64,000 bases of DNA. Origin: a bacterium c-19. GTDB lineage: Bacteria > Bacillota_I > Bacilli_A > Erysipelotrichales > Erysipelotrichaceae. The stretch lies in assembly GCA_009917405.1 (NCBI GenBank), contig QZED01000003.1:1-64000 (forward strand), read 5' to 3'. Position numbers and translations under genes: made by a program. A model generated the notes under the pieces. It did no database searches. It was not told the origin of the DNA and worked only from the letters and a program-made list of their open reading frames with translations. Positions within the stretch are counted from its first letter, which is position 1, and each line of letters starts with the position of its first letter. This document shows positions 21,255 to 58,674 of this stretch, piece by piece.

Positions 21255-21287
21255 TTTTCTCACTATCAGAACCACACTTTCAACGTG
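21252..21287 (-). repeat. RlmD C-terminal tail scar B
   Basis: The minus strand encodes HVESVVLIVRK then a stop; GTTGAAAGTGT is identical to the rlmD 3' end and HVESVVL matches it exactly at protein level. The sequence just upstream is shared with the region before scar A (ATTAAAATATACAAGACACG). It follows the second RhuM-Fic relic by about 45 bp. Confidence 0.65.
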
Positions 21288-21420
21288 TCTTGTATATTTT
21301 AATTTAAACAATCATAGGCATACTCATCCCTTAAACATTCTCTTTTTGTAGAAAATTCATAATCAATGCAATCATGATCTCTTTTTCTTCCAATTTAGAT
21401 TCCGCAATCAAAATAATTGC
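21283..21420. repeat. Direct repeat copy 2
   Basis: Second copy of the segment at 19889-20030: spacer plus the last codons of a RhuM-Fic gene (MNFLQKENV versus MNFLQKENI). Confidence 0.8.
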
Positions 21421-21541
21421 AAATAACGCATTAACACTGATTATTTTTGCATAAACTATTTTTTTAGTGTCTTCATGCGTTTTACATTTATCGCATATCC
21501 TTGGATCATATATTCCTTTAATATTATTTTTGTCCATTTTC
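21331..21541 (-). pseudogene. Second RhuM-Fic relic, internally deleted and frameshifted
   Basis: Reading across frames on the minus strand gives WTKIILKEYMIQGYAINVKR, then MKTLKKIV (RhuM domain middle), then directly LIAESKLEEKEIMIALIMNF and LQKENV (Fic domain end). Compared with the gene at 19937-20887 roughly two thirds is missing: the N-terminus, the linker and the whole Fic motif. A genuine decay product rather than a gene. Confidence 0.75.
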
Positions 21542-21626
21542 TATATGCTAAAAGATTTCATCTGATATTAGCATTGTAAAAATAGGCAAAAATACTTTTG
21601 ATATTGCTTGTGATTTCTTTTACATT

Positions 21627-21662
21627 TTATACCCTTATTATCAGAATTACACTCTCAACATA
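21627..21662 (-). repeat. RlmD C-terminal tail scar C
   Basis: The minus strand encodes YVESVILIIRV then a stop. It differs from scar B at only a few positions over 30 bp (GTTGAGAGTGTAATTCTGAT versus GTTGAAAGTGTGGTTCTGAT). It lies 58 bp beyond the intact RhuM gene. Confidence 0.55.
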
Positions 21663-21720
21663 ATTATCATTGTCCACCTTCATATTATTACCGATTTCTA
21701 AAAAATCTCTTTTATGAGAA

Positions 21721-22740
21721 TCAATTCTTACCCCTTTTCTTTACTGTACTGTGAATATTTTTAATACTTTCCAAATATTCTTCTTCTACTGGCGATAAGT
21801 TCTGTACCTGATATTTCTTATATTCTTCTGTTGCTTTTTCGATTGCCTGTACATGACTAATCGTTCCGGCTCCTTGTAACACTTTTTCACCTGTAGTTTT
21901 TAAAACATTATCAAGGTGCTCCACATAATCTGCCATATACATAGGATTGTGGCGCATAGCTTGTATCTCCGCAAAATCAAAATATCCCGATACAATATTA
22001 TTTAGGATCTTTAACTCTTCATCATTGAGATAATTTTTTGCGATACTGATATCTTTCAATACAGGAAAATCACCAGAAAAACTTTTTAATCCCATAAAAG
22101 GCTGACTGGCGTCCGCACGCCCGTATATAACTTCTGCTGCTGTATGTCCGTGTGCTGCATAGTGTAATTTATTTTGTACCATTTTGAAAAATGCAATGGA
22201 TTCACTACTCTTGGGATCATAATCAACACTTGTTGCATAAAGGTCAAGTACTTGCCGGTACATAACTTTTTCAGATGAGCGTATATCCCGAATACGGTCT
22301 AATAACTCTTTCCAGTAATTACCGCCACCCAAATTTTTCAGCCGTTCATCATCCATTGTAAAGCCTTTTAACATGTACTCTTTTAATCGTTCAGTAGCCC
22401 ACCGACGAAAATTTGTAGCAATTTTAGACTTTACTCTGTACCCAAGCGAAATAATCATATCAAGATTATAGTGTATTGTATTATAGTTTTTCCCGTCAGC
22501 CGCAGTTGTTCGGAATTTCCGTACAACTGCATTTTCCTCTAGCTCACCCTCTTCAAAGATGTGCTTAATATGCTCACTGATATTAGATTTACTAGTTTGA
22601 TAAAGTTCACATAATTGTGCCTGCGTAAGCCAAACGGTCTCGTCTTCAAATTTAACATCTATTTTTGTCTTTCCATCATCCGTTTGATATATGATGATTT
22701 CGCTTCCTATAATATTAAAATTATCTTTATTGTACACCAT
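21721..22740 (-). CDS. Virulence RhuM family protein (intact)
   Basis: 339 residues, full-length RhuM (named for the Salmonella SPI-3 gene; biochemical role unknown). N-terminal domain: FEDETVWLTQAQLCELYQTS, DGKNYNTIHYNLDMIISLGY, FRRWATERLKEYM. C-terminal domain: YRQVLDLYATSVDYDP, MVQNKLHYAAHGHTAAEVIY, GRADASQPFMGL, YFDFAEIQAMRHNPMYMADY. It lacks the Fic end of its neighbours. It starts 43 bp after the stop of the STAND nuclease gene on the same strand with GAAAGGAGACG as ribosome-binding site, so the two are probably one operon. Confidence 0.9.
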   Translation of the reverse strand: MVYNKDNFNIIGSEIIIYQTDDGKTKIDVKFEDETVWLTQAQLCELYQTSKSNISEHIKHIFEEGELEENAVVRKFRTTAADGKNYNTIHYNLDMIISLGYRVKSKIATNFRRWATERLKEYMLKGFTMDDERLKNLGGGNYWKELLDRIRDIRSSEKVMYRQVLDLYATSVDYDPKSSESIAFFKMVQNKLHYAAHGHTAAEVIYGRADASQPFMGLKSFSGDFPVLKDISIAKNYLNDEELKILNNIVSGYFDFAEIQAMRHNPMYMADYVEHLDNVLKTTGEKVLQGAGTISHVQAIEKATEEYKKYQVQNLSPVEEEYLESIKNIHSTVKKRGKN

Positions 22741-22783
22741 TATTCGTCTCCTTTCTGTCTTTTAATATTTATGTATTTGTAAA

Positions 22784-25700
22784 TTATCCTCTTAAGATTT
22801 CTTCGATTTGTTCAGATTCAATTTGCCTTTTTAAAGAATCAACTTTTGTCTCGATATATTTTTTATGCTTAATCCATTTTAACCCTATTAAACTTGGAAG
22901 TAATGATTCAAGATACTCAATCCAAGCAGAATACATAGGTACTGCACTTCCCGACCAACTCCAAGAAATAGGTGTTAATGGTATTCTTTTAAAATCTTCA
23001 AACAATGGATTATTCTCAAGAAATAGCAAAATATATTCCTTCTTTCTTTCGATTTCCAATTTCGATATAACTGAATATAGGCAATACATTTTTGCTTCAT
23101 CATTAGAGAACAACTGAATGCATTGTCGAATCCACTCGTCTTGTCTTCCCAATAGATTTTGCTCATTTTGGATTGGTAATAATAAAGAATCCAAAAAATA
23201 TAGTACTGATATCTTGGAAAAACGGCAATTCTCCAATAGCTGTTCAAAAATCTTATTATATATTTCTATAAAATCGTCCAAATCGAAAAAGCAACGATTC
23301 CTTTCTTGATGGCCCCTAAAAGAACCCTCATTTTTATTTATTAAATACCCTATATATTTGTCCAGTATAGAAGGTCTAACTAAATATATTTCTTTTAAAA
23401 ACTGTCCATTATAATCAGAGTGATTATAATACGATAACACAGCACAATAAATTTCTTCAAGCAATTCCAAATTCCAATTATATTTTTGGATTACTTCTTG
23501 AGGTGTATTATGACAATTATTAAATAACAAATCAAAATAAATATAAACTATAAAAGGTGAATACTCCATCTTCGCTAAAATAATTTTACTTCCCTTTATT
23601 AATGCTTGCTTATCTATTACATTATATTTCTCAAGAAAATCCACGTCACGCATTGAGGATGAAGTAATATCTCCGTCAGAAGTATCTTTCAAAAAGTTAT
23701 AAAGCCCTTGCAGATGTTTTGGAGTAATTAATTCTGACGGTAATTCATGATAATAGGCATACAGCCAAGCATTTTTCTGGGTGTATTCTTCACTAGCAAT
23801 AATTTGATACACTTCTAAATCAGACAATAAGGAAAAAAGTATGTTGATCAGATGAGATGGGGCCAAATTGTTTGGTGTATCATTTTCTATGTAATACTTA
23901 ATTGCATCAACACAGTAATCTTTTTGAGGAGAAAAGGCATCAAAAGCAATTCCTAAACCCTCTACAACCTCCCAAGATGTATGAGCATCAAATTCAGAAA
24001 TATCATTACAAACATCGATTAACTCCTTGAACATTTCTAAATCACAATTAGAAACGTATTGATTAATCGCTTGCTGTTTTAATTGTTTGCATTTTTCATA
24101 ACCAACTTCTTTTGTGAAATCTGGTCCTTTAAGAAGCAAATATAGTTGGAAATATTTTCCTGCAAAATATTTAGCAAATTCTGTTTCACAAGAAATGTTC
24201 ACACAACTGAAAATGTGTGCTATTTTGTTGACTAACAGGCAATTTCCTAACTCTTCTGGTGGAAAATGCACCTCCAAAATTGATTCGATATATTTTAAGT
24301 CAAATTGCAGAACTGGAACACTTATATCCTCGATAATGTCACCATAAGAACTAAGGACTTCTCTAACTTTTTCTCTATACTTTCCAATTTCACACAAAGA
24401 GGATAAAGATTCCCAAATTAGCTTTCGATAATTTTCAACACCTTCAGATATGGCCAACGGAATTTGATATACCGTTAATGTATTCTTTCGTCCGCCCTCC
24501 GCTGGTGAAAAATGTAATTTTAAGAATTCTTTTGCTATTTGCAAAAAAAGAATAGCAACAAATTTTTGTTTCCAGTCATCTGAATATTCTTTCATCTTCT
24601 CAAAAAAAGTTACTTGTGTGTAAAAACCATAGTGTGCAGAATCTTTATTAACACCAAAATATAGATTAACTGCATGATAAAAATCCATATATAAATCTGG
24701 TCGCTTAAAATAATACTGAAAAAACAAATCACAAGCTGTTGGAAAATCAATCATATCTGCAAAACCACCAAGAATTTTAATGATATCATCTGTTACATTC
24801 TGGTAGCTTTTTCCTTTCTCAGTATCAATATTACACCATTCACAAATCACTCCTTCTTCAGATTCAATTTTATCTTGTAAAATCAGGAGTGTTTCGGTGG
24901 GATTAATGGGAAAAAACACTTTTACAAATTCAAAGAAATCCTGTGATTTTTCTGTTGTTAATTCATCCCATAATAATTTTATTTCTTTCTCAACAAAACT
25001 GAAAAGAGTTTCATTACTAAATATATTAAGTAACGTATTAACAGAAGAGATGGTTCGCTCTCTATAACTTTGAAAACATGCTTTAATCATCTTCGACAAA
25101 CTAAGTAGTTTTTTATCAAAAAAAACATATTTTAACAAATAATTAGATAAGCATTGATCAGAAAAACGAACGGCTTTATCATTGCAAATATCAACAATTT
25201 CCTGCTCGTGAAGCATACGGATATTTTCAATAAAATCATCTCGATTTATGCTTTTTTCATTTAAAATTGGCAAAAATGCATCTAGGTGTTCTAAATGAAT
25301 TGCTTCTAGAAAAGCAACTATACCAGCAGTTATGCACATGTTTTTGTTAACAAGCAATTGATTATCCTCTAAGGTAGAGCCATAATAATCTTCATATAAT
25401 TGTGACACATCATTAATAGAATCCAAACGATTTGAATTACATGCTACTTTCCCTGCAAGTATAGCAATACGAGCATTTCCCTCTGCAATTCTTATGATTC
25501 TTTCTTGATAGTCTAGATTTAGAATACCCAATGAGGTTTCGAGCAATTTCTTAATCTCGTCATCTGAAAATACATTTATGTTTACAATTTCATACGAAGT
25601 AATTTCTCGAACATCTTTTATCACTTTTTGAAGTGCATAATCTCGCACTGTAATCAGTATTTTTACGTTATATCCCTCTGATTTCATACCAGCATAACGA

Positions 25701-26527
25701 ATAATATGCTGTAATCCCGACAATTGATTTGCATCATCAATAAAAAGAAAATAGTTTCCAGGGTTGTCTAAAAATAGCTTCAAATCCTCATATATTGGCA
25801 GCGCATTACTGTGAATGCAATAGACCTTTTCATTGTTAATATCTGGGCGATTTTTCACATAATGCAAAGCTAAACGAGTTTTTCCTGTACCTGCTGAGCC
25901 GTTGAGTATAACAACATCCGCTTTCAAATAGGCGTTACCAATATCTTTAAATTCCTTTTCTCTGAATAAAAATTTAGTATCAATTGGAGCCGCCATTCTA
26001 TTTAAATTATAACTATTAATAAAATCGTCATACGATTGAATTTGCCCCGTACTTATCGGTATTCCCAGAAAATCACGGCAAAGGCTATGATGGAATAGAT
26101 ATATGTCTTCTGCAAGCTTATCAATTCCGATAATTGTAAGCTTGATTCCAATATTTTCACATAAAACTTTTACCTCATTATCTTGAAAGGGCGTAAGATT
26201 TGATGAAGTATGGCAATAAATAATTTCAGAAATTTTATTATGCGGAATACTAGTCTTTGATGTATCAAGGCATTTTTTAAGGTCACCTTTAATTTTTGCA
26301 AATAAACTTGTCTTTTGAGTTGTATATTCTACAAAAATATACTTTCCATTTGATGCAATCAAATAGGTGTCTGGTGTCCCTGGAGTGGTCTTTCGTGTAC
26401 CAGCTTCTCCGCCAAGAGATACTATATTAGGGTAGCCAATTTTATATAAATAGGAATCACAAAGATTTTGAAATGACCCTGCATCCAGTTGGAGTATTTT
26501 TTGTTTGATACTTTCAATATTAGCCAT
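22784..26527 (-). CDS. Nuclease-STAND NTPase with long helical sensor region, candidate defence protein
   Basis: 1247 residues from the ATG at 26527 (MANIESIKQK), preferred over a GTG 9 bp upstream because AGAGGTG lies 6 bp before it. Residues 15-75 look like a restriction-type nuclease: TTPGTPDTYLI (Asp 53) then YIFVEYTTQK (Glu 67), a PD-(D/E)xK-like pattern. A second small domain (100-155) follows. The NTPase has Walker A GSAGTGKT (210-217), Walker B YFLFIDDANQ (259-268) and sensor ILITVRDYA (290-298). From about 420 to the end is alpha-helical, repeat-like sequence with no named domain. The layout is that of Avs-type and other STAND immune sensors. It is visibly more A/T-rich than the flanking core genes. 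Confidence 0.8.
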   Translation of the reverse strand: MANIESIKQKILQLDAGSFQNLCDSYLYKIGYPNIVSLGGEAGTRKTTPGTPDTYLIASNGKYIFVEYTTQKTSLFAKIKGDLKKCLDTSKTSIPHNKISEIIYCHTSSNLTPFQDNEVKVLCENIGIKLTIIGIDKLAEDIYLFHHSLCRDFLGIPISTGQIQSYDDFINSYNLNRMAAPIDTKFLFREKEFKDIGNAYLKADVVILNGSAGTGKTRLALHYVKNRPDINNEKVYCIHSNALPIYEDLKLFLDNPGNYFLFIDDANQLSGLQHIIRYAGMKSEGYNVKILITVRDYALQKVIKDVREITSYEIVNINVFSDDEIKKLLETSLGILNLDYQERIIRIAEGNARIAILAGKVACNSNRLDSINDVSQLYEDYYGSTLEDNQLLVNKNMCITAGIVAFLEAIHLEHLDAFLPILNEKSINRDDFIENIRMLHEQEIVDICNDKAVRFSDQCLSNYLLKYVFFDKKLLSLSKMIKACFQSYRERTISSVNTLLNIFSNETLFSFVEKEIKLLWDELTTEKSQDFFEFVKVFFPINPTETLLILQDKIESEEGVICEWCNIDTEKGKSYQNVTDDIIKILGGFADMIDFPTACDLFFQYYFKRPDLYMDFYHAVNLYFGVNKDSAHYGFYTQVTFFEKMKEYSDDWKQKFVAILFLQIAKEFLKLHFSPAEGGRKNTLTVYQIPLAISEGVENYRKLIWESLSSLCEIGKYREKVREVLSSYGDIIEDISVPVLQFDLKYIESILEVHFPPEELGNCLLVNKIAHIFSCVNISCETEFAKYFAGKYFQLYLLLKGPDFTKEVGYEKCKQLKQQAINQYVSNCDLEMFKELIDVCNDISEFDAHTSWEVVEGLGIAFDAFSPQKDYCVDAIKYYIENDTPNNLAPSHLINILFSLLSDLEVYQIIASEEYTQKNAWLYAYYHELPSELITPKHLQGLYNFLKDTSDGDITSSSMRDVDFLEKYNVIDKQALIKGSKIILAKMEYSPFIVYIYFDLLFNNCHNTPQEVIQKYNWNLELLEEIYCAVLSYYNHSDYNGQFLKEIYLVRPSILDKYIGYLINKNEGSFRGHQERNRCFFDLDDFIEIYNKIFEQLLENCRFSKISVLYFLDSLLLPIQNEQNLLGRQDEWIRQCIQLFSNDEAKMYCLYSVISKLEIERKKEYILLFLENNPLFEDFKRIPLTPISWSWSGSAVPMYSAWIEYLESLLPSLIGLKWIKHKKYIETKVDSLKRQIESEQIEEILRG

Positions 26528-26585
26528 AATCAACACCTCTACTATTTGAAAATCTTTTATTGCGCTAAATCATCTTAAAATATCT

Positions 26586-26838
26586 TTACACATCCTCGAC
26601 TTCTTGTTCCTTTTCTGGCGGCATTTGTGGAACTTTCGACTCCTTTTCTCCTAAATTATAATTGATTTTTCTATCAGTCCATGCTTTCTTTTAACTTGTG
26701 CTATATATAACTGAAATACTTTAAGTCTTGTCTTCTCCAACACATAATCCTTAATTTCCTCATAGGTGGCTTTGCTCTCCGCGGCCGTCAAATCAATTCA
26801 TCCATTTCTAATTCCACATTGACATGCTTCAACTTATT
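26586..26838 (-). pseudogene. Decayed C-terminal extension of an RlmD-type protein
   Basis: Directly after the rlmD stop the minus strand encodes, across three frames, KLKHVNVELEMDEL, then DLTAAESKATYEEIKDYVLE and KTRLKVFQLYIAQVKRKHGL, then NYNLGEKESKVPQMPPEKEQ and a stop at 26586-26588. This matches the extra C-terminal domain seen on many Clostridia RlmD proteins. Two single-base losses explain the frame changes (near GAATTGATTTGACGG and near AAATCAATTATAATTTAG). The intact rlmD does not need it. It fills most of the 26537-26838 gap. Confidence 0.7.
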
Positions 26839-28152
26839 TTATTTAAGTTTGGAAAGCAACACGACACTTTCAACATGCTGTGTCTGAGGAAACATGTCGA
26901 TCGGCTGTATCTCCTTAACCTCGTAACGTTCCTTTAAAATCGCGAGATTCTTACCCAACGTCGCAGGATTACACGAAATATAAATTAATTGCTTAATTTT
27001 ACTTTTCAATATACAATACAACATCGCATCATCAAGTCCGCTACGCGGCGGATCGACAACCAGGGTATCAATCTTGCGCTTTTTAGACAGATAAGATAGC
27101 TTATCCGCAGCGTCAGCACACAAAAAGGAAACATGTTCTGCTCCGTTGATCAAAGCATTTTCATTCGCATTAACCACAGCGTCCTTCACTTCCTCAATAC
27201 CGATGATTTCTTTCGCCTTGTCTTTCAAATACAATGAAATAGCTCCAATACCGCTGTAGGCTTCTACGATCAGATCATTATCATCTCCTACCAAGTCTGC
27301 TACAACATGATAGAGACGCTGTGCCTGTTTGGTATTCAACTGAAAGAAAGAACGGGGTGAAAGCTTCAATTCTAAATGATCAAACTTTATATGTAACTGC
27401 TTCGCACCGCCTAAATGAATCATTTTTTTGCCGAACATATCCGTTGTCTTTTTTACCGTATGATAACTTTGCCAAAGACTGACCAAACCGTCAATCTTCA
27501 TTAAATCGGCGATGCACTCTTTGCTTAAAGGCTCTTCACCACTTACGATACAAGCTTGATATGCATGATCAAAGCCACGGATAATTACTGTGCGAATCCC
27601 GCTTTTATTGTGATAATCATATGCACGTAAATGATGCGCATTCAACACTTCCACTATTTTGTAACGAATTTGCTCTAACCCCTGCTCATGCACAGCACAA
27701 TACTCTACAGCTTCAAAATAATTAGAGTTTGCCATATACATGCCGGTCGCTAAACGACGCTCCACCATTGCACAAGGAAGCTTGCACTGATTTCGGTAAC
27801 CAAGCTGTACCTCACTTCTGATAATCGGACGAATCAGCTTAGGATCAATCTGTGCATATTTAATCAGCGATTGTCGTAACAACGACTGTTTCGCTTCGAG
27901 TTGTGCATCATAATCGGCAATCATCAGCGGACAACCTCCGCACCTTGCCTGAATCTTACACGGCGGAAGCACGCGCTTCGGACTTTTCTTCAAAACCCGC
28001 TTAAGCTTACCATGCATAAACCGTTTCTGCTTATCAACGATTTCAATATCCACAACCTCACCGACAAGCGCCTGCGGGATAAACACCGGAGTATGGTCAA
28101 TATAAGCAATACCCTCTCCGTTAATTCCTGTTTTAATCACTTCAACCTTCAT
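26839..28152 (-). CDS. rlmD: 23S rRNA (uracil-C5)-methyltransferase
   Basis: 437 residues. N-terminal TRAM domain (EVIKTGINGEGIAYIDHTPVFIPQALVGE), an iron-sulfur Cys cluster (CKIQARCGGCPLM), and the SAM methyltransferase core (VEAYSGIGAISLYL, VVDPPRSGLDD, YISCNPATLGKNL with the nucleophilic Cys). It methylates a uridine of 23S rRNA using SAM; whether it is RlmD- or RlmCD-like in target range cannot be told. Its 3' end, coding for HVESVVLLSKLK, borders the accessory island. It is followed by decayed RlmD-extension sequence. Confidence 0.9.
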   Translation of the reverse strand: MKVEVIKTGINGEGIAYIDHTPVFIPQALVGEVVDIEIVDKQKRFMHGKLKRVLKKSPKRVLPPCKIQARCGGCPLMIADYDAQLEAKQSLLRQSLIKYAQIDPKLIRPIIRSEVQLGYRNQCKLPCAMVERRLATGMYMANSNYFEAVEYCAVHEQGLEQIRYKIVEVLNAHHLRAYDYHNKSGIRTVIIRGFDHAYQACIVSGEEPLSKECIADLMKIDGLVSLWQSYHTVKKTTDMFGKKMIHLGGAKQLHIKFDHLELKLSPRSFFQLNTKQAQRLYHVVADLVGDDNDLIVEAYSGIGAISLYLKDKAKEIIGIEEVKDAVVNANENALINGAEHVSFLCADAADKLSYLSKKRKIDTLVVDPPRSGLDDAMLYCILKSKIKQLIYISCNPATLGKNLAILKERYEVKEIQPIDMFPQTQHVESVVLLSKLK

Positions 28153-47221: not shown

Positions 47222-47261
47222 TAAAAAAAGCAGCCGATATAATTTTACGTATATCAGCTGC
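47222..47261 (-). terminator. Terminator of the giant GH31 gene
   Basis: On the minus strand GCAGCTGATATA pairs with TATATCGGCTGC (12 bp, one wobble) and is followed by seven T. Confidence 0.88.
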
Positions 47262-47297
47262 CGATTTATTCAAATGCAGTTAATTAATCAAGAGTGA

Positions 47298-50200
47298 TTA
47301 ATCTTCCAGCACTTTTTCCATCTTCTTGGTTACGAAGATCAATACCGCACCAAGCAAGATGAATGCAGGAATACTGCTCGCTGTTACCGGCTGTGTTGCC
47401 GTATCAACGATCGGAGAATCACTGGATACAATTGCATAATATGAATTATGGTTTGTTGTAAATGTGATATATCCGTCTGCTACTTTAGATGGAATTGTTG
47501 TTGCTTTACCGTCATCGGAAATATATACAATTCCCAGATAGCGTTTTGCTTTCAACTCATCATCTAATTTAATCTTAACCGTAATGTTTCCTTCCGGTGT
47601 ATATGTTACACCATTGCGCAGCATATAAATGTTGAAGATTTTTTCAAATTTATACTTCGCAACTGCATCTTTGTTTGTGATTTTCGCAATGATGTTTGCT
47701 TTTACATCAGCTGCTAAATCCTCAACAATCAACACAACATCAGATGGGAACTTACCAATAACACTTACATTGTTTTTGTTGTTATCAATTTGAGTTACAT
47801 AACCCGGTTTAATTGGCTTATTCGGTTCAACCGGATTTGGAATAACCGGTTTGCCTGGTTTATTCGGTTGATCAGGTTTACCTGGATTATCCGGTGTACC
47901 CGGCTTGTTTGGCTGATCAGGTTTACTTGGATTATCGGGATTAACAGGAGTATTTGGTTTAACCTTTAATCCGACTCTGGCTTTATTCAATACTGCCAAT
48001 GCTTTTTCCACATCACCTTGAGATGCATCTTTATTATTCAATACAGCTTTCGCCGCAGCGATTGCGTCATTCAGTGTTTTCACACTTTCAACAGTATATT
48101 TACTTGTATCTATTGCCTCTGCTTCTTTTACTGCCTGTTCCAATTTGGAGAAGTTTGCTCTCTTTTCAGCACCCTTGATTGCTTTTTGCAATTTAGCAGT
48201 CATTGCATCAACTTCAGCTTGTGTTGCATTTTCATTCTTAAAGATTTTCTCTGCGGATGCTACTAATTCATCTAATCCGGCTACACTTGTTGATATATAG
48301 TTATCGATATTAGCCAAGATTCTGTTTGCCTTAGCAATTTCATCAGCCAATTTATCTTTATCAGCCAGTTTAACCAATCCATTAATTGCTTCACGCAAAG
48401 CTGCGCAAGCTTCATTAACTTCAGCCAGTGTAGCATCTTCATTTGCTGCTACTGCTTTTGCTGCTTTGATTGCTTCTTTTAATGCTGCCATAGATGCTGA
48501 AGTATAATTACCTGTAATTGCTTCTGCGGTTTCAATCAAAGAATTAATTTCAGCTTTATCTACAACTTCCCATAATTCGCTGTGTGCTTTCACAATATTT
48601 TCAATTGCTTCGCGCAGCTTAGCAGAATCATTTGAATCTTCATCAATCAATGCTTGACCGGCAGCCACAGCTTTTTCTAAAGCCTCAACTTTACTTGGGC
48701 GAACATTTTCGATTTCACTGCTTGCTAAAGTTTCATTTGCAATTGCAATAATTTCAGCTAAGTTTGCTTTTAATTCATCAACCGATACACCTTGCAGTGT
48801 GCTTGCCGCTAATACCATAGCTGCATCAGCTGCTACTGCTTCGGCAGTTGAAATATCATTATCGCCCTTAGCGAGAATCGCTTCAGCTGCTTCGATTGCA
48901 GCTTTCAATTCTGCAAACTCAACTTCACTGTAATTTGGTTCCATTGCTTTGTAAGCTGCAACATGTGCTTTTAAGGAATCAAGAACTGTGCTGCTTGCTC
49001 TCAAATCTAAATCATTAATTTTGTTTCTAACAGCAGCGATAGCCAATGACAATTCTTCGTCTGTTGGATTCTTTAATGCTTTCAATGCTTCATAAGATTC
49101 CATAAATGCCGCAAATGTACTTGTTGTATATAATTCTTTATTCGCTATAATTTCTTCAGCTTCTGCAACAATTTCATCATAAGACGGCAGCCCTGAAACA
49201 CCGTAGAAGTTAAGCTCTGCGATCGAAGCATATTTATTCGCACTTGCCTCGTTACTACCTACAGATTCAATAGCGATAAATCTTACATACCTTGCCGGTG
49301 TAGGATCAAATTTCACTTCTTTAGCTATACCAGGATTTACCAAAGTACCGCCTTCAGTTTCGAAATATCCTTCAACAACCGGTGTAAATGTTTTGTCATC
49401 ACCCTCATCAGTACTTACTTCAATGCGATAATGTGTAATCTGACCATTAGTGTTGTTTTGACGAGGCAGCATATCTACTTGTTCTAAGTTATAGATCGAA
49501 CCTAAATCAATTGTTACATACTGAGGCAAGGAATAGCTTGCACTGTAATTTGAATGCCAGATAGTATCCGGATCACCGTCAATTACATAGCCGGCATGCT
49601 CTTGTTCAACTGCCGACATACTCGATTCATCAAATCTGCTCAATTTATTTTGATCGATTAAGTTAGCACTTGAAGGCTTGCTTTCATCAGAACCTTTAAA
49701 TTTAATTTCGTCTAATGCTTTCGCAATGTTAACTGTCAGCGTATCAATTTCTTCTTGAGTAACATCATCTTTTGCCAATGCTTCAATTGCACTGTCTACC
49801 AGATCTTTTACAGCATTATAACTTGCTTCCGTATACAAGTTTTTGTGTAATGCATTGAAACTTTCAATTTGTTTATTAATTTTTGTGCTGTTTACACCAC
49901 TTAGTACTTCAAATTCTAATGTATCTGTGAAAGATCCATCTTCACTTGTCGCTGTTAATATTACTTTTCCTGCTGAAACACCTTTTACTAAGAAGTAATA
50001 GCCTGATTCAGACGGAACTTTAGTAACGGTTGCGATATTGGTATCACTGCTTGTAATATCATAGAACGGATTGCTTACATTATCCGGAGCAACCGTTGCA
50101 GCTACCTGCACTACTTCATTGATTCTTGCCACAGTTTCGCTTGTACTGTCAAATGTGATACCTGTAGCTTTTACAGCATCATCAACAATAAATTCTACTT

Positions 50201-53200
50201 CATATAAAGAAAGCATGCGGTTTTCTACCGAACCTGTAGTAGTACCGGTTGCGTTGCCCACTGAAGTCAGCGGTGTAATTACAACGCGATCGATTGTTCC
50301 GCTTCCTGCCGGTACAGTAAATTCAAATATATCTTGCGCACTATCAATTGTACCTAAATCAATTTCTGTAGTACCGCTGTATGCAACAGCTTGAATACTG
50401 GTTACTCTACCGTTACTTGAAACACGGTTATAAACTTTAACTTTACTTAAAGGTTGATTTTCGGCAAATGTAAATTTCATGTCTGTAGGAAGTTTAACTT
50501 CGGCAGCAATATTATCTTTACCACTAAAATACCATTTAAACTCTGCCATTGCTCCTGAACGATCACCGTCAAACAGTAAGTCTTTCCAGTTTGTTTGTTG
50601 CCACAATTCGCTTCCGTCCATATCCGTTTTCACGTCATTGTCAAATGTGATAGAAGCAATATCATCAACACCTAAAATATTTTCTGTATCCGGAGCAACC
50701 GGTTTTGTTGTTTCATCAATGATTGCATCTACAGTAGATAAATCTTGACCTACTAATATCGCCTGTGTCGGCTTTGTATCCCAAGTAAAGTCAGCAGTAG
50801 CTTTAATTGTTACTGTAGCAATACTTCCGGTACCGCTAATCAGATTCTGCTTTCCTACATTTGTAAAGCATACATAGTTATCAATAGCACCATTGTTGTG
50901 AATACGTGTTTTAGAGAAGTTTCTCATAAAGGCAGATGCCAATGTCGCAGAACCGAAGTTTGCGATTTCAAATAAATCATTGTCTACAGGAATTTCAACG
51001 CTGAATGCATTCACATTTTCCAATCCGATACCGAAAATATCCAAAGTTACTATATCTCCGGCCTTAATATCTGTCTTGGAAGGAATTATTTGAATCTTTC
51101 CGTTTACACCGGAAACAGGATTTGTAATCGGTGTACCCAGCATTCTTGCAACAAATGATATATCATAGGCATCAATAATTTCATCACCGTTGATATTTCC
51201 TAAAGCTGAATAGTCCCAATCATTATCTACCGGTTTTAGTCCTACGTAGTTTTCGTAGAATACTAAGTCGTTTTCGTTAACATCACCTGAGTTATTAACA
51301 TCTCCGACTACCCAAGCATCGGTACCATCTTTTTTGTAAGTGGTCAATTCAGAAGCTGAGAAGAATCCTCCGGTTGATTCCAGTACGCTTAATCTTAGAT
51401 AACGTGCCTTCACACCGTCTAAGTCAACTTCCTTAATATCAGCAACATCCATATTATCCGTATCATATGTCCAAGCTGGATTTGATTCACCATCCCATAC
51501 TTTTTTATAACTTACACCATCTAAAGAGGAATAAACATTCATGCGCTTTACAGTACCATTACCCTTATTGTCCATACGTGGTTGATAAGTAAATTTATCT
51601 AATTGGTAAGCAGCACCCAAGTCTATTGTCATCATCTGATCAGGAGTAACTGCATTGGTGGAATGGAACATTGTACCTGTATCATGGTCAAATGCATTCG
51701 CTAAAGCTCCCCATTGGTCTCCGTATTCCCAAGCAGCAGTAGCGTCCGGAACATTACGATATGGATTATCAGCGGTCTGAATGGTAATTAAATCAGACCA
51801 ATCAGAGAAGTGTCCGTTAGCAGCAACAGTACGTACTCTGTAAGTATGATCGGTTAAGAAACCTAATCCGGAATGATTATATTCAGGATCTATAATATTT
51901 CTGATTACAATTCCGTCAACTTCAATATCATAAGATGCAGCATCAGTAACGGCATCCCAAGCTACATTAATTTCAGAATCTGTCTTAGAAACTTCGGCCA
52001 ATCCTGTCGGAACATCTAAAGTTGTGTCCAATACATCTTCGCCCAGGTCTTGATTATTTTCAAATCCTTCTACTACAACAGTAATACCATGTGCTGTAAT
52101 ATCGTTTTTACCCGCAGATTTTACATATAATTTCGGCTCGGTAGTTTCAGTTGTACTTGCATAACTGCTGTCTGCACTTGCATATTCTTTCACAAAGATT
52201 GAAGGATTCTCATTATAGAAATATACATTGCCGGTAGCCGCATCATAATCTGCTTGACTGGTAACTTTCGTGAATGTTACATCACTACCTGCTACATTAC
52301 CGGTTACAGAAGTAGGCGCTTTAGATACGTTTACAACAAATTCGGTGGATCTTTCTCTCACCATACCGGTATAACTGCCGTTTGTTTTTTCTGCAGTCAA
52401 TGTTACAGTATCTCCATCAACTTTAGATTTAAGCTCTGTATATACACCGCTTCCGCCTAAAGTTTTTCCGTCATCTTCATAAGCTGTAAAGCTTGATTCT
52501 CCGGAAGGGAAGAATTCAACAATTCTTTGACTTCTGTCTAACCCGTCACTATTTGTAGTAGTTTTTGCTTCCGGGTTGTTATTTTCCGGATACATCGGAA
52601 TAATTGATCCGTTCTTAACGAATACCGGAAGTTTCCAAAGCGGTGCATCAAAGTTATTTAATACTTGACCGCCTCGATATTGTTCACCGGTAAAGTAGTC
52701 AACCCAAATATCACTGGTACTTGGTAAATAGATACCGTTTCTGACATCATCACCCTGACCGTTAGCTGCCGTATTTTGATAAATCGGAGCAACTAGGAAA
52801 TTATTTCCCCACATATATTGATACTGAGTATCTGTACCTAAAGTATAGCTATTTTTTTCTTCCAGCATCATCGCTCTGATCATAGGCAATCCACCTTCAG
52901 CAGTTGCTTCATGTGAAATTGTGTTATTATAAGGCATTAATTTTGCTTTTAATTTCAAATAAGCACGGTTAATAGATGTACCATCTTCACCTAAAGCCCA
53001 TGGTGATTTCTGATTACTTCCCCAACCATCCATATCTAACATGAAAGTTGTAAATGCTTTCCATTGGAAATCACGTGTCCATGCAATTAAGTTTGCACCA
53101 CCGAAGATGCCATCCATATCACTACCGATATTCGGCTGTCCTGATAAAGCTGTTCCGATATAAGTCGGAATATGGAAACGAATATATTCCCACTGTCCGC

Positions 53201-54680
53201 CGGACTGATCTCCGGTCCAAATGCCGCCGTAACGCTGTGTACCTGCCCAGCCGTTCAATGTAACAATGTTCGGTTTGAGTCCTGACTTGGTTGCAATAGC
53301 ATCGTAGGCAACAGAAACACCGTTTAACGCCATAGAATATCCGGCACCTACCCAAGCAACGTCAGTTTTTACTGAATGTACACCGGCTTCAACTTCTTTA
53401 TAGATATCGCGTTCACCCTTTTGAGGATTACTTGAATCAGCAGGCCATAAGTTGGACTGTGTCCATAAACCTGTTTGTATACCGTTCGCAATTGCATAAT
53501 CAGAAAAATCTTTTAAGTTATCAATGTCTCCGGCTTGTGAAGTAGTTTGACCGTATCCGCATCCATAACCGTCATTTGGCAAGAACCAACCTAACGGCAT
53601 ATCGTATGCTTTATGATCTTCAATCACTTGCTGTGCTGTCACATTGGACGTACCTAACAGTGTTTCTTTAACACTGCCGTCACTATAACTTTGTGATTCT
53701 TTATACCATTTGTCACCTAATTTGACTGCTCCTGAAGTTCCTTCTGATACTTCAGTCCAGAAGTCACGATTGTAACAGTTTAAGTGTCCCAAGTAAGCAG
53801 CATATTCCGGTAATTCTGCCGGTTTTCCTGTTAATTCATAATAATCACCTAAAATTTCTACAGGTGTATCATCAATGAAGAAATACGCATCGAAACGTTT
53901 CTCATTATGCGTCGTTTTAACCGTATCAGTACCTGAATTGCCGAAATCATATTCTCCCGGCTTCCATGTATTACGAACAACACCATAACCGTCAGTAGAC
54001 CAATAGAATGGATTTGGGCTTGTTACACTTTTATCTACCCAAGTATTTGTTATTGCAATTTTTATTGTATTTCCTTTATGTGAGAAACGTCCGTTCTGTG
54101 TTCCTCCGCCGTAGAAATACTCATTCGCATCTGTTTTCAGCGTCTGATATGTACTTCCGCTCTTATATTTTAAAGGAGCAGCTTCTTCCCAAATCACTGT
54201 CCCATCTGCTTTTTTTACCTTTGTAACAGAGTCAGCTTTATTAATTTCAATAATAATTTTTCCGGTTGAAATAGTAACGGTTGTTGCATTTTCGCTAACT
54301 GTAGGTCTTACACCGTATTCTGTTTCAAACTGACTGTCTGTTTTATTTGTGATTGTTGCAGTATGAGATGAGCTGTTAGGGGTAGGATATTCTTGAAATT
54401 CTTCACCGAGCGGTGCCATATACATTCTAAACATATTGTCTTTTAAGAATGTATAGCGTACTCGTTCACCTGTAGAAATATCCAAAGTAACAATGTTATC
54501 TGAATTAGACACAGATGCAACAGATCCAAGAACATTGTAACCACTCTCATCAACAGCAGCAGTCGCAATACCATCATTTCCTTTAGCAAAAACACTTGCA
54601 GTAGTAGAACCAAGCATTGATGTTGTCATCATGAGAGCTAAAGAAATAATCTCTAATTTTTTTACTGTTTTCTTAATCAT
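47298..54680 (-). CDS. Giant surface GH31 glycosidase with CBM32, dockerin, cohesin and FIVAR domains
   Basis: 2460 residues. Signal peptide 1-33. GH31 catalytic domain about 60-740: likely nucleophile Asp 440 in VHSVKTDVAWVGAGYS and acid/base Asp 491 in GGIWTGDQSGGQWEY. Then fibronectin III (888-968), CBM32 (975-1115), a dockerin (GDVNNSGDVNENDL and GNINGDEIIDAYDI, 1122-1185), a cohesin-like domain (1192-1330), a further beta domain, BIG2-like (about 1515-1600), FIVAR, second CBM32 (about 1680-1830), several FIVAR repeats, Pro/Lys/Asn linker, a final beta domain and a C-terminal membrane helix with KK tail. QPVTA before the helix resembles, but is not, a standard sortase signal. Architecture recalls GH31_18 alpha-N-acetylgalactosaminidases, so mucin O-glycans are a reasonable substrate guess. 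Confidence 0.85.
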   Translation of the reverse strand: MIKKTVKKLEIISLALMMTTSMLGSTTASVFAKGNDGIATAAVDESGYNVLGSVASVSNSDNIVTLDISTGERVRYTFLKDNMFRMYMAPLGEEFQEYPTPNSSSHTATITNKTDSQFETEYGVRPTVSENATTVTISTGKIIIEINKADSVTKVKKADGTVIWEEAAPLKYKSGSTYQTLKTDANEYFYGGGTQNGRFSHKGNTIKIAITNTWVDKSVTSPNPFYWSTDGYGVVRNTWKPGEYDFGNSGTDTVKTTHNEKRFDAYFFIDDTPVEILGDYYELTGKPAELPEYAAYLGHLNCYNRDFWTEVSEGTSGAVKLGDKWYKESQSYSDGSVKETLLGTSNVTAQQVIEDHKAYDMPLGWFLPNDGYGCGYGQTTSQAGDIDNLKDFSDYAIANGIQTGLWTQSNLWPADSSNPQKGERDIYKEVEAGVHSVKTDVAWVGAGYSMALNGVSVAYDAIATKSGLKPNIVTLNGWAGTQRYGGIWTGDQSGGQWEYIRFHIPTYIGTALSGQPNIGSDMDGIFGGANLIAWTRDFQWKAFTTFMLDMDGWGSNQKSPWALGEDGTSINRAYLKLKAKLMPYNNTISHEATAEGGLPMIRAMMLEEKNSYTLGTDTQYQYMWGNNFLVAPIYQNTAANGQGDDVRNGIYLPSTSDIWVDYFTGEQYRGGQVLNNFDAPLWKLPVFVKNGSIIPMYPENNNPEAKTTTNSDGLDRSQRIVEFFPSGESSFTAYEDDGKTLGGSGVYTELKSKVDGDTVTLTAEKTNGSYTGMVRERSTEFVVNVSKAPTSVTGNVAGSDVTFTKVTSQADYDAATGNVYFYNENPSIFVKEYASADSSYASTTETTEPKLYVKSAGKNDITAHGITVVVEGFENNQDLGEDVLDTTLDVPTGLAEVSKTDSEINVAWDAVTDAASYDIEVDGIVIRNIIDPEYNHSGLGFLTDHTYRVRTVAANGHFSDWSDLITIQTADNPYRNVPDATAAWEYGDQWGALANAFDHDTGTMFHSTNAVTPDQMMTIDLGAAYQLDKFTYQPRMDNKGNGTVKRMNVYSSLDGVSYKKVWDGESNPAWTYDTDNMDVADIKEVDLDGVKARYLRLSVLESTGGFFSASELTTYKKDGTDAWVVGDVNNSGDVNENDLVFYENYVGLKPVDNDWDYSALGNINGDEIIDAYDISFVARMLGTPITNPVSGVNGKIQIIPSKTDIKAGDIVTLDIFGIGLENVNAFSVEIPVDNDLFEIANFGSATLASAFMRNFSKTRIHNNGAIDNYVCFTNVGKQNLISGTGSIATVTIKATADFTWDTKPTQAILVGQDLSTVDAIIDETTKPVAPDTENILGVDDIASITFDNDVKTDMDGSELWQQTNWKDLLFDGDRSGAMAEFKWYFSGKDNIAAEVKLPTDMKFTFAENQPLSKVKVYNRVSSNGRVTSIQAVAYSGTTEIDLGTIDSAQDIFEFTVPAGSGTIDRVVITPLTSVGNATGTTTGSVENRMLSLYEVEFIVDDAVKATGITFDSTSETVARINEVVQVAATVAPDNVSNPFYDITSSDTNIATVTKVPSESGYYFLVKGVSAGKVILTATSEDGSFTDTLEFEVLSGVNSTKINKQIESFNALHKNLYTEASYNAVKDLVDSAIEALAKDDVTQEEIDTLTVNIAKALDEIKFKGSDESKPSSANLIDQNKLSRFDESSMSAVEQEHAGYVIDGDPDTIWHSNYSASYSLPQYVTIDLGSIYNLEQVDMLPRQNNTNGQITHYRIEVSTDEGDDKTFTPVVEGYFETEGGTLVNPGIAKEVKFDPTPARYVRFIAIESVGSNEASANKYASIAELNFYGVSGLPSYDEIVAEAEEIIANKELYTTSTFAAFMESYEALKALKNPTDEELSLAIAAVRNKINDLDLRASSTVLDSLKAHVAAYKAMEPNYSEVEFAELKAAIEAAEAILAKGDNDISTAEAVAADAAMVLAASTLQGVSVDELKANLAEIIAIANETLASSEIENVRPSKVEALEKAVAAGQALIDEDSNDSAKLREAIENIVKAHSELWEVVDKAEINSLIETAEAITGNYTSASMAALKEAIKAAKAVAANEDATLAEVNEACAALREAINGLVKLADKDKLADEIAKANRILANIDNYISTSVAGLDELVASAEKIFKNENATQAEVDAMTAKLQKAIKGAEKRANFSKLEQAVKEAEAIDTSKYTVESVKTLNDAIAAAKAVLNNKDASQGDVEKALAVLNKARVGLKVKPNTPVNPDNPSKPDQPNKPGTPDNPGKPDQPNKPGKPVIPNPVEPNKPIKPGYVTQIDNNKNNVSVIGKFPSDVVLIVEDLAADVKANIIAKITNKDAVAKYKFEKIFNIYMLRNGVTYTPEGNITVKIKLDDELKAKRYLGIVYISDDGKATTIPSKVADGYITFTTNHNSYYAIVSSDSPIVDTATQPVTASSIPAFILLGAVLIFVTKKMEKVLED

Positions 54681-54912: not shown

Positions 54913-57900
54913 TTAATTCGGCTTCTTTCTCGCCTTCATTAAAGCAATGCGCAATGCTGCATTAACATCATCTACATCTTTCTTCGTCGCATTCACATCT
55001 TTGTAAATACTGCGTGCATTTTTAACCAAATCATCAAGACCGGTAATTGTAGAAGCTTTATAATCTGAAGCATTGTCCAAAATATTTTGTGCCATCGATA
55101 AATTCGATCCTAACGCATTCTTATTTACTGCTGCTTTCACTTGTAATCCTTGAAGTGCGCTTATTAACAGTGTATAAGCTTCATCAACTTCATCTTGTGT
55201 TGCGTCTTTATTTTCTATCACCGCTGAAGCATTATCCTTTGCCTGTTCAAGCGCCTCTACACTGGTATTTGTAAATTGAGCTGTATTATAATTCGTACAA
55301 ATTTCTAATAGTTGCTCTAAATGCGTTTTCACAACAACATTCACTTCAACTTTACAATTTTCAATTGCTGCAGTTATTTCATCAATACTATTTTGCATCT
55401 GATTTACATCATTTGATCCATCACTGATTAATTTCTCTGCCTTTGTAACTGCATCATTTAATACCTCTAAATTACTGTTATCAATACCTGCAGTGTCTCC
55501 GTTTAATAAGTTATGTGCATCGCTTATTAAGTTCTCTAATTCTTTTTTTACACTCACAACAGCCAGGTTAGCTTTTTCTGCGCTGAGGGAATCAATCATT
55601 GCAGTTGCATTTGCAGCACTTACTTCACTGATACCGCCGGCAATCAGTGCGTTTGCATCAACAAGCAACTGATTCATTGTCGCAAATTCTGTTGCAGTAA
55701 AATCAGAAGCTAGCTTTTCGCATTCATCAATTAATGCTGACAATGTTTGATAAGAAGCTGCAGACACTCTTTCAACCAGCGCATCCAACATATTTGTTAA
55801 AGAAGTAACCATTTGGTCAACTTGATCTTGAGTAGCATCCTCATCAGTTAATACATCTTGAGCATCGCTGACTACTGTCATTAAAGCTTGATATGAAGTT
55901 GCAGTATAGTCATCAGCATCAAGTGCATTCGCATTAGTGATTAATGCAGATAATGAATCTTTATTAATTTCATAAACATAAACGGTGCATGTAGCTTCAA
56001 GTCCGTTTACTGTCGTTGCCGTGATTGTTGCAGTTCCTGCGCTCTTAGCGGTTATAACGCCGTCTGCTACGGCAGCTACATCCTCATCACTGCTTGTCCA
56101 TGATAACGTCTTTGCTTGTGTTGTATTTTCAGGTAATATCGTTGCTGTTAAGGTCGCATTTTTTCCTGCCTTTATCGTTATAACATTTTGATTTAAAGTA
56201 ACTGATGTAATAGGTATTTCTTTTGCATTAACCGTTACAACGCAATTTGCTTGTTTTCCGTTTACACTGGTAGCTGTAATTGTTGCAGTTCCTGCGCTCT
56301 TAGCGGTCACAACACCATCTGCTACAGTAGCTACATCCTCATTGCTGCTTGTCCAAACCAATGTATGTGAATCTGTTGTATCACTTGGATTAATGGTAGC
56401 AGTCAGTGTCTCTGTTTCATCTTCTACCAATGTAAGTGATGTTTTATTCAATGTTACAGAGGTAATCGGCCTAGTAACTACTGCTTGTGTAACAGTAAGT
56501 TTACACTCTGCCTTGCGACCGTTTACCGTCGTAACTGTAATCGTCGCAGTTCCCGGTGCAACCGCAGTTACCTCACCGCTTTGATTGACAGTCGCAACTG
56601 ATGTATTACTTGAAACCCATGTTAAATCCTTTGCATCTGTTGTATCACTTGGATTAATGGTTGCCCTTAAACTTTGATTACTTCCTTCTTCTAAAGTAAT
56701 GGCGGTTTGATTTAATACTACTGATTTAATTTCACTTCTGATTGTCACGGCACATTCAGCTACAATTCCGTTTGAACTGGTTGCGCTGATCACTACGTTT
56801 CCCGGACGCTTTGCACGCACCAAACCTGTAGTGCTTACAGAAGCAATTTCTTCATTGCTGCTTTTCCAAGTAATCGTTGTGTCCATTGTGGTGTCACTTG
56901 GGTTTACAATTACTCTTAGACCTTGTGAAGTTTCCTTATTCATTGTTAATGCCGTTTCACTTAAAACAAGACTTGTAATCGGCACAACAACGTCATCTAC
57001 ATGAACTGTTGCAGTGGCACTGTGACCGTTGGCATTGCGTACTGTGATTGTTGCACTGCCTACTGCATTAGCTGTAACTGTTCCGTCATCAGAAACACTG
57101 ACAATGTCCGGTGCACTGGATGTCCAAGTTAAATTCGCATTATCTAATACTGTATAAGGTGACAAAATGACATTAAATGTACTTTTATTGCCCACTTTCA
57201 ACATCAAGTTATCTTTATCTAAATTAATCCCTGTTGTTATAAACCGATATGCTACACTATTATTTATCGCATAACGATAAGCCTCTGAATTTTCTCCGAT
57301 TAAAACGACAACTTTCGGTGAATTAGAAAACACACGACTTCCTAAATTATTAACAGTATTAGGGATCGTTACACTCTTTAAATTAGGGCAGTCTGCAAAT
57401 GCGGTTGCTTCAATAGAAGTCATACCGTTTGGAAGTACCACTTGTTCTAAATTAGTACTGTATCTAAATAAGCTGGCACTCAACTGCTTTAAATTTTTCG
57501 GAAGTGTAATTGATTTCAGTGCAGTACAATTAGTAAATGTTTCTGCACCGATATATTTAATAGTGTCAGGCAATACAATATCTTTTAAATTAGAACATCC
57601 GCTGAATACGTTGTTTCCTAAAGAAGTCACCGTATCCGGAATAACTATGCTTTCCAGTGATTGGCATCCGCTGAATGTTGCATCGCCGATTTCTGTAATT
57701 TTGTTTGGGATGTTTACATTTTTCAAAGAAGTACACCCTGTAAATGCTCCGTATCCTAATCCGCTCACATTTTCAGGAATCACAATGCTCTCTAAGCTGA
57801 CACATTCTTGAAATGCATTCTGACCGATTCCGATCAGAGAAGACGGAAGAACAATATCAGATAATGACAAGCACCCTGAGAATACTCCCGAACCCAGTGT

Positions 57901-58545
57901 TGTAAATCCTTCCGGAAGCACAACGCTTTCTAAAGATACACACTCAGTAAATGCGTTTCCTTCGATGCTTAACAGACTGGAAGGGAAAGTCACTTTTTTT
58001 AAAGCACGACAGTTACCGAACGCTGTTCCGCCGATTGTTTGTAATCCATCTGGAAGAATTACTTCTTTTAATGAGATACAATCAAAGAAAGCACCATAGC
58101 TTAAGCTTCTGATTCGACTTGGTATCTTTACTTTTTCCAAGCTGTTGCAGCCGGCAAAGGAATATCTTCCGAATGAAGCCACACTTTCCGGAATATTGAT
58201 TTCACGAAGCTGCGTAGATTGTGAAAAGGAATAATCACCGATACTCACCACTCCGTCGGGAATTGTCAGCGTTTCTATGCTTTTACATTCTGCAAATGCT
58301 CCGTAACCGATACGTGTTACTTTGTATCCGTCAATTTCTGACGGTATGATTAAATTTTTCTCACTACCGCCGTAGTTTATAATAGTAATCGTTGAATCAG
58401 AATTCATTTCATATGTGTAGTCTCCGCTTATGGTAGCCGCAACAACAGTTGTTACATAACCACCAAAGAATGTCCCGGAGTAACTTCCGATTGAAATAAC
58501 CATGAGTAACGACAACATTATTTTTGTAATTTTGCTTATTTTCAT
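54913..58545 (-). CDS. BspA-like LRR/BIG2/FIVAR surface protein
   Basis: 1210 residues from the ATG at 58545 (MKISKITKIMLSLLMV), preferred over an upstream in-frame start because AAAGGAGAAA precedes it. Signal peptide about 1-37. Residues about 45-425 are tandem LRR_5 (BspA/Treponema pallidum) repeats of about 23 residues (SIETLTIPDGVVSIGDYSF and similar). Five BIG2 domains of about 83 residues follow (435-855; TATITVTTVNGRKAECKLTV and similar), then four or five FIVAR domains to the end (KARKKPN). No sortase motif or membrane helix at the C-terminus, so it may be released or held non-covalently. An adhesin role is inferred. Confidence 0.85.
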   Translation of the reverse strand: MKISKITKIMLSLLMVISIGSYSGTFFGGYVTTVVAATISGDYTYEMNSDSTITIINYGGSEKNLIIPSEIDGYKVTRIGYGAFAECKSIETLTIPDGVVSIGDYSFSQSTQLREINIPESVASFGRYSFAGCNSLEKVKIPSRIRSLSYGAFFDCISLKEVILPDGLQTIGGTAFGNCRALKKVTFPSSLLSIEGNAFTECVSLESVVLPEGFTTLGSGVFSGCLSLSDIVLPSSLIGIGQNAFQECVSLESIVIPENVSGLGYGAFTGCTSLKNVNIPNKITEIGDATFSGCQSLESIVIPDTVTSLGNNVFSGCSNLKDIVLPDTIKYIGAETFTNCTALKSITLPKNLKQLSASLFRYSTNLEQVVLPNGMTSIEATAFADCPNLKSVTIPNTVNNLGSRVFSNSPKVVVLIGENSEAYRYAINNSVAYRFITTGINLDKDNLMLKVGNKSTFNVILSPYTVLDNANLTWTSSAPDIVSVSDDGTVTANAVGSATITVRNANGHSATATVHVDDVVVPITSLVLSETALTMNKETSQGLRVIVNPSDTTMDTTITWKSSNEEIASVSTTGLVRAKRPGNVVISATSSNGIVAECAVTIRSEIKSVVLNQTAITLEEGSNQSLRATINPSDTTDAKDLTWVSSNTSVATVNQSGEVTAVAPGTATITVTTVNGRKAECKLTVTQAVVTRPITSVTLNKTSLTLVEDETETLTATINPSDTTDSHTLVWTSSNEDVATVADGVVTAKSAGTATITATSVNGKQANCVVTVNAKEIPITSVTLNQNVITIKAGKNATLTATILPENTTQAKTLSWTSSDEDVAAVADGVITAKSAGTATITATTVNGLEATCTVYVYEINKDSLSALITNANALDADDYTATSYQALMTVVSDAQDVLTDEDATQDQVDQMVTSLTNMLDALVERVSAASYQTLSALIDECEKLASDFTATEFATMNQLLVDANALIAGGISEVSAANATAMIDSLSAEKANLAVVSVKKELENLISDAHNLLNGDTAGIDNSNLEVLNDAVTKAEKLISDGSNDVNQMQNSIDEITAAIENCKVEVNVVVKTHLEQLLEICTNYNTAQFTNTSVEALEQAKDNASAVIENKDATQDEVDEAYTLLISALQGLQVKAAVNKNALGSNLSMAQNILDNASDYKASTITGLDDLVKNARSIYKDVNATKKDVDDVNAALRIALMKARKKPN
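55975..57240 (-). repeat. Five tandem BIG2-encoding repeats
   Basis: About 250-bp units inside the BspA-like gene; the two 3'-most share long near-identical stretches (VADGVVTAKSAGTATITATS versus VADGVITAKSAGTATITATT). Expansion or contraction by recombination is likely. Confidence 0.75.
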
Positions 58546-58674
58546 ATTTTTTCTCCTTTCCTCTTTTTTTAAAATCATATACAAACAAGACTTGCTCAAT
58601 TAACACCCCTTTGCACTTGTCTATAAAGGTACACGATTTTGAATATGAGGAATCATCGATAAAAACGATAAAAA

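Follow-up and report, generated by a model that had tools for sequence, protein, structure and literature searches.

The window analyzed herein is a 64,000-nucleotide stretch (positions 1-64000 of contig C119 of genome G000) from a 2.24-Mb assembly that comprises 184 contigs and is 98.4% complete; close relatives carry Erysipelotrichales/Erysipelotrichaceae labels. The window contains a minus-strand, ATG-initiated open reading frame (ORF), with purine-rich sequence (GAAAGGGAAGAG) located 5' of the start codon. The original prediction described a 2460-residue GH31 ORF at this position, bearing the motifs VKTDVAWVGAGYS and WTGDQSGG along with CBM32 and FIVAR domains. The ORF is present at that length, both motifs occur in its product and hold Asp440 and Asp491, respectively, and Pfam matches were obtained to F5/8 type C (CBM32) and to FIVAR, the latter in four stretches over the whole protein. 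By the usual GH31 roles, Asp440 would be the nucleophile and Asp491 the acid/base. The modules are listed below.

Features of the GH31 gene and its immediate 3' flank (window coordinates)
Feature	Position	Strand	Basis
Whole gene, GH31_18-type multimodular surface enzyme, 2460 aa	47298..54680	-	ORF and Pfam
Predicted signal peptide region, aa 1-33	54582..54680	-	by eye
GH31 catalytic region and FN3, aa 49-975	51756..54536	-	collinear with E. faecalis 6m76/7f7q/7f7r
Asp440, catalytic nucleophile by alignment	53361..53363	-	aligns with the Asp mutated in 7f7r (Asn) and 7f7q (Ala)
Asp491 in WTGDQSGG, presumed acid/base	53208..53210	-	alignment
CBM32-1, to aa 1116	51333..51755	-	matches 4LPL (CpGH31 CBM32-1) over aa 952-1116
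Dockerin, aa 1118-1184, both EF-hand loops intact	51129..51329	-	Pfam and alignment
Cohesin, aa 1193-1321	50718..51104	-	PF00963 match and predicted fold
CBM32-2-like domain, aa 1355-1474	50259..50618	-	matches 4UAP
Big_2 Ig-like domain, aa 1505-1588	49917..50168	-	21.7 bits, under the 22.8 cut-off
CBM32-3, aa 1671-1827	49200..49670	-	matches 4LKS
Helical FIVAR repeat region, about aa 1838-2250	47931..49169	-	Pfam; bounds by eye
C-terminal membrane segment and charged tail, aa 2435-2460	47301..47378	-	read directly
Terminator-like hairpin, 13-bp stem then T run, just past the stop	47229..47262	-	consensus match only

Between the FIVAR repeats and the membrane segment lie a proline-rich stretch and then a C-terminal domain. 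Direct reading of the last 26 residues revealed no LPXTG-like motif; an LPXTG/TPNTGD-type anchor motif is common in relatives, and the genome itself has two sortase matches. Proteins from three other genomes (G050, G111, and G132) closely resemble this C-terminal end. The neighboring gene on the same strand (54913-58599), which lies some 230 bases upstream, encodes a 1228-residue surface protein that combines leucine-rich repeats of the BspA type with Big_2 and FIVAR stretches and in which an anchor is not evident. Elsewhere in the window, positions 20001-28000 have a low G+C content (0.32-0.35) and hold two genes that we take to be RhuM-like (20207-20887 and 21721-22740), followed by what is presumably a gene for a 1250-residue P-loop protein (22784-26536); by eye, this could be a defense or mobile region. 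A megablast search of the window against a plasmid collection gave no match.

The catalytic assignment has strong sequence support. Each of the four Pfam GH31 modules (PF13802, PF01055, PF21365, and PF17137) scored above its cut-off, and the GH31-FN3 region aligned end to end with the Enterococcus faecalis alpha-N-acetylgalactosaminidase 6m76 at 925.8 bits, while the next GH31 structure reached 109.4 bits. This region is wholly collinear with the E. faecalis enzyme (6m76, 6m77, 7f7q, and 7f7r), whose solved chain covers the GH31-FN3 part only, and Asp440 aligns with the Asp that was mutated to Asn in 7f7r and to Ala in 7f7q. With the membership of the E. faecalis enzyme in GH31_18 taken from PMC11790493 rather than from a CAZy subfamily tree, the predicted GH31_18 identity and alpha-N-acetylgalactosaminidase function are thus well supported by these alignments. 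The original prediction had named an alpha-glucosidase or xylosidase placement, together with a lack of GalNAc activity, as the outcome that would speak against it. The NCBIfam alpha-xylosidase and MalA models do match the family fold, but they score far under their cut-offs (121.8 against 606 bits and 100.2 against 800 bits, respectively), and with 926 bits to a solved alpha-N-acetylgalactosaminidase, we regard such an activity as extremely improbable.

The natural substrate would be the core GalNAc of mucin. The GH31_18 enzymes that have been characterized, among them the E. faecalis and Clostridium perfringens ones, cut alpha-GalNAc off peptide (PMC11790493). The GalNAc-Ser/Thr (Tn) assay suggested with the original prediction could mislead, given that Akkermansia muciniphila Amuc_1008, likewise a GH31_18 enzyme, was unable to cleave the Tn antigen and acted instead on mucin core GalNAc (PMC11790493), and that a GH31_18 enzyme from Hoskinsella was active on pNP-alpha-GalNAc and inactive on the native substrates tried (PMC13096917). 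Among the carbohydrate-binding modules, CBM32-3 matches 4LKS (E 5.2e-28), and a third CBM32-like domain, between the cohesin and Big_2, matches 4UAP (E 1.2e-7), the structure of the second CBM32 of CpGH31 from C. perfringens. GalNAc binding has been described for each of the three CBM32s of CpGH31, and their contact residues have been named (PMC5291390). In alignments made by eye and using CpGH31 numbering, all four residues of the GalNAc/galactose site of CBM32-3 (His1671, Tyr1674, Arg1702, and Tyr1774) are kept in the window protein, in favor of the mucin reading; in the CBM32-2-like domain Trp1359 and Arg1393 are kept, Asn1401 is changed, and Asp1351 falls in a gap.

The claim that a dockerin and a cohesin share this chain also holds, with the dockerin above its Pfam cut-off and the cohesin recognized by predicted fold. 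Dockerin_1 scored 22.8 bits by hmmscan (cut-off 22.9) and 28.3 bits, above the cut-off, in a genome-wide profile search. Each of its two EF-hand loops has five of five calcium-ligand positions, so that with two calcium loops, their helices, and a score above the cut-off, it qualifies as a type I-like dockerin. The cohesin gave no hmmscan match at E<=0.05 in the window protein, and Pfam hmmscan by itself would miss it. It is the genome's top PF00963 match, yet at 19.5 bits (E 0.0014) it lies under the cut-off of 24.1. An AlphaFold2 model of the module, built from 10 sequences, had a pLDDT of about 90 across much of the core and superposed on the cohesin from a GH33 enzyme of C. perfringens (2vo8), giving Z 13.8 and an rmsd of 1.9 over 119 residues. 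Of the 50 structure matches listed, 49 were cohesins or cohesin-like modules, the exception, 8um6, ranking last, and Foldseek also retrieved cohesins. The predicted model therefore confirms a cohesin jelly-roll fold for this module. The first half of the dockerin is poorly modeled (pLDDT <50), and the model is consequently silent on dockerin-cohesin contact. Weak PF00963 matches elsewhere in the genome, on contigs C108, C141, and C98, were judged to be chance; by sequence reading, they fall in a surface protein, a protein with a beta-galactosidase-like (GH2-type) domain, and a DNA polymerase I-like protein, respectively.

The combination of GH31 with an adjacent dockerin and cohesin is not new: the gut bacteria C. 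perfringens and A. muciniphila have been described as each encoding a GH31 protein that carries a single copy of both modules (PMC12997984). We found this layout in every relative examined. The closest described architecture is that of CpGH31 (CPF_1301), which is drawn with a putative cohesin and also has GH31, FN3, three CBM32s, and Big_2 (PMC5291390); its dockerin is given by PMC12997984, and PMC5291390 mentions none. CBM32-1, -2, and -3 of CpGH31 each have a counterpart in the window protein, which carries the whole CpGH31-type set, GH31-FN3-CBM32-(Doc)-Coh-CBM32-Big_2-CBM32, with Big_2 just below its cut-off. Relative to CpGH31, as known from its description and its solved CBM32s, the window protein is extended by FIVAR repeats and by a membrane segment at its C terminus. 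The A. muciniphila protein with this layout is presumably Amuc_1008, which is predicted to be periplasmic (PMC11790493), in contrast to the surface location proposed for the window protein. Finally, Hoskinsella mucinilytica UGRO018_00696, the pNP-alpha-GalNAc-active enzyme mentioned above, is an Erysipelotrichaceae GH31_18 with two CBM32 domains; the domain labels in the figure describing it include FIVAR and LPXTG, and the text mentions neither dockerin nor cohesin (PMC13096917).

Beyond the layout itself, our results revealed that the tandem is a fixed feature of the Bacillota members of this enzyme group that were examined. The cohesin directly follows the dockerin in all 34 of the GH31_18 genes examined, including those of Clostridium celatum, Thomasclavelia saccharogumia, and two Cytobacillus oceanisediminis genomes; recurrence at the same place in 34/34 relatives argues that these modules are not chance matches. 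These genes came from 244 family genomes (26 genes in 23 genomes, from 27 search rows), a contig scan (seven), and a class sample (one). Selection was by resemblance to the query sequence, with E<=1e-100 as the threshold in the genome samples and a short-peptide pattern in the contig scan, and the scope is the Bacillota, with the GH31_18 members of Bacteroidota, Akkermansia, and insects left out. Thirty-five ORF records were reduced to 32 genes (L036/L046 being duplicated once and L037/L045 twice), and two more genes make 34. In the class sample (296 genomes), GH31_18 was found in 8 genomes, and all 10 full-length tandem matches were within those 8; in the phylum sample (392 genomes), the corresponding numbers were 12 genomes and 15 of 15 matches, the class, phylum, and family samples overlapping. 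The remaining rows of the tandem search (3 class and 4 phylum) covered the dockerin part or little more.

A strict rule that the full tandem always travels with GH31 was rejected, with genome G060 as the exception. Its locus L117 (1-5997, minus strand) encodes a signal peptide-CBM32-Doc-Coh protein that lacks a GH31 domain and whose first dockerin repeat has decayed strongly, and tblastn found no GH31 upstream. In G014, a tandem ORF starts at a contig end (L124); neither L117 nor L124 is counted among the 34. In G050, two consecutive GH31_18-Doc-Coh genes (L045:775-15916) have GH31 modules 96% and 49% identical to that of the window, and the C-terminal 60 residues of these two paralogues are near-identical, as if a surface-anchor end had been exchanged.

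Two further properties of the tandem emerged from an alignment of 27 of the 34 genes, close relatives being left out. First, all 27 have a linker of 11-14 residues between dockerin helix 3 and cohesin strand 1. Second, the dockerin has decayed on one side: calcium loop 2 is intact in 27/27, with Tyr at loop-2 position 11 in 23/27, whereas loop 1 is intact in 12/27. On the cohesin side, Met1252, between strands 4 and 5, is present in 25 of the 27. Free dockerins from the same genomes kept both loops in 17 of 19 cases (Fisher p 0.002 for the comparison with 12/27, with related sequences treated as independent). These 19 controls are a subset of the free dockerins, made up of 14 terminal dockerins on ORFs of 490-739 residues and five from M60-class proteins; the counterpart of the 14 in the window's genome is a glucosaminidase that is not itself in the set. 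Identity between the two dockerin repeats averaged 4.4 of 20 positions in the GH31 dockerins, against 16.1 in the 14 free dockerins and 5.8 in the five of the M60 class. Given that two similar cohesin-binding faces are general in cellulosomal dockerins (PMC5429695), the decay of repeat 1 suggests that at most one such face has been kept. The architecture being known, the fixed tandem, the fixed linker, and the one-sided decay appear to be new, as no prior description of them as a conserved cassette was found in the accessible part of the open-licence PMC literature.

The distribution of possible partners bears on what the tandem does. In 4 of 24 GH31_18 genomes (G037, G080, G101, and G268), the GH31 dockerin is the sole dockerin match at E<=0.1; in G149, which is 58% complete, the single dockerin match lies outside the GH31 gene. 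The cohesin of the GH31 ORF passes the PF00963 cut-off in 11 of the 24, and an above-cut-off cohesin outside that ORF occurs in 3 (G014, where it is the contig-edge tandem, G181, and G187). The genome studied here has three dockerin proteins in total: the GH31 enzyme, a glucosaminidase, and an M60 peptidase. At the glucosaminidase locus (L067:4258-7759, contig C86, outside the window), the enzyme has a near-symmetric dockerin, and the next gene encodes an N-terminal domain that appears cohesin-like by eye (weak, E 0.87), a Cadherin-like domain, and a membrane segment. At six of six other loci inspected (L097, L099, L100, L102, L103, and L105), the next gene is of a similar kind. These two genes probably form a separate dockerin-cohesin pair that would anchor a wall hydrolase.

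Taken together, we tentatively favor, at somewhat below an even chance, a surface GH31_18 alpha-N-acetylgalactosaminidase with a mainly self-directed dockerin-cohesin cassette. In this model, a secreted, surface-held exo-acting enzyme would cut core alpha-GalNAc from mucin O-glycopeptides once other enzymes have trimmed the glycans. The CBM32 domains would keep it on GalNAc/galactose-rich mucin, and the FIVAR repeats and C-terminal membrane segment would leave it attached to the cell, yet at a distance. The dockerin and cohesin would act as a single conserved cassette with a short fixed linker, in which the dockerin's main partner would be a cohesin of the same kind, either its own or that of a neighboring enzyme copy, so that self-pairing would stiffen the chain or pair chains instead of providing a general enzyme-capturing scaffold. 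A self-directed role is favored because the cassette is conserved, its linker is fixed, and it is kept in the four genomes that have no other dockerin match. For C. perfringens, AlphaFold3 predicts pairing of the GH31 cohesin with the GH31 dockerin and also with a GH2 dockerin (PMC12997984). Several observations count against this reading, including an earlier ELISA study reported to have found no dockerin-containing partner for the GH31 cohesin of C. perfringens (PMC12997984), the occurrence of the tandem apart from a GH31 domain in G060, the two intact calcium loops read from the window sequence, and the two other dockerin proteins in the genome, of which the M60 one co-occurs with GH31_18 in the genus.

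That M60 peptidase underlies a close rival, namely capture in trans, whereby the cohesin would hold the dockerin of the secreted peptidase, bringing protease and alpha-N-acetylgalactosaminidase together on the surface and leaving the enzyme's own dockerin free or vestigial. The peptidase (L068:3214-8430, contig C110, outside the window) has the HEIGH motif, FN3, CBM32, and an asymmetric dockerin, with no C-terminal anchor evident. Each of the five genomes of the genus that carry GH31_18 also has an M60-type dockerin protein, as recognized by Pfam M60 for the window genome's copy and by the HEIGH motif for the other four. In the family, the M60-dockerin region was found in 8 of 244 genomes, of which 6 have GH31_18, and the 2 without a detected copy are incomplete assemblies (83% and 66%). 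Further, these five dockerins resemble the GH31 dockerin in their asymmetry, and when free dockerins are scored with the GH31 dockerin profile, four of these five come out on top. However, five of the six co-occurrences are from one genus, loop positions 10/11 are unlike (QT and IA in the genome's own M60 protein, EN and AY in the GH31 dockerin), and no M60-dockerin was found in 17 of the 23 GH31_18 genomes among the 244, such that M60 cannot explain the conservation of the cassette. The peptidase is, on sequence grounds, the best candidate partner in trans in this genus, and capture by the cohesin is a possible but doubtful account of the tandem.

Ranking third is a purely structural role, in which the dockerin and cohesin would no longer bind and would simply keep the CBM32 modules apart as rigid beads. 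The loss of an intact loop 1 in 15 of 27 genes, the fixed linker, and the negative ELISA would all fit, but the conservation of loop 2, its Tyr, and Met1252 suggests that a function has been kept, although a structural role would conserve calcium sites too; we consider a pure spacer improbable. General scaffolding, either as endless head-to-tail chains or as a cellulosome-like gathering of many dockerin enzymes, is permitted in principle by one dockerin and one cohesin per chain, but it is very unlikely, as the genome has just three dockerin proteins, one with its own candidate cohesin-like partner gene downstream, and as tandem cohesin repeats are absent. The Limousia mucinolysome and cellulosomes are akin to the window protein in having cohesins and dockerins on enzymes that act on mucin. 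They are built, however, on scaffoldins without catalytic activity, some of which bear cohesins in tandem, and on a large number of dockerin enzymes (PMC12997984), whereas the window protein is a catalytic chain with a single cohesin.

Returning to the self-directed cassette, a broader proposal would be that the Bacillota GH31_18 tandem is a captive pair, in which a dockerin short-linked to its own or a sister cohesin has lost its second symmetric face and become a self-contained clasp or pairing element, even without a catalytic domain; this generalization is plausible but more speculative than the explanation offered for the window protein. If true, a receptor-ligand pair that builds cellulosomes would have been turned into a self-contained clasp or pairing element. 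The tandem is fixed across Bacillota members and, in many, is missed at standard domain cut-offs. Its enzymatic setting would be the removal of core GalNAc, which is the final step of mucin O-glycan stripping, and the co-occurrence with M60 provides one specific candidate partner. The tandem raises the question of whether dockerins and cohesins always form complexes in trans or may sometimes be parts of one chain.
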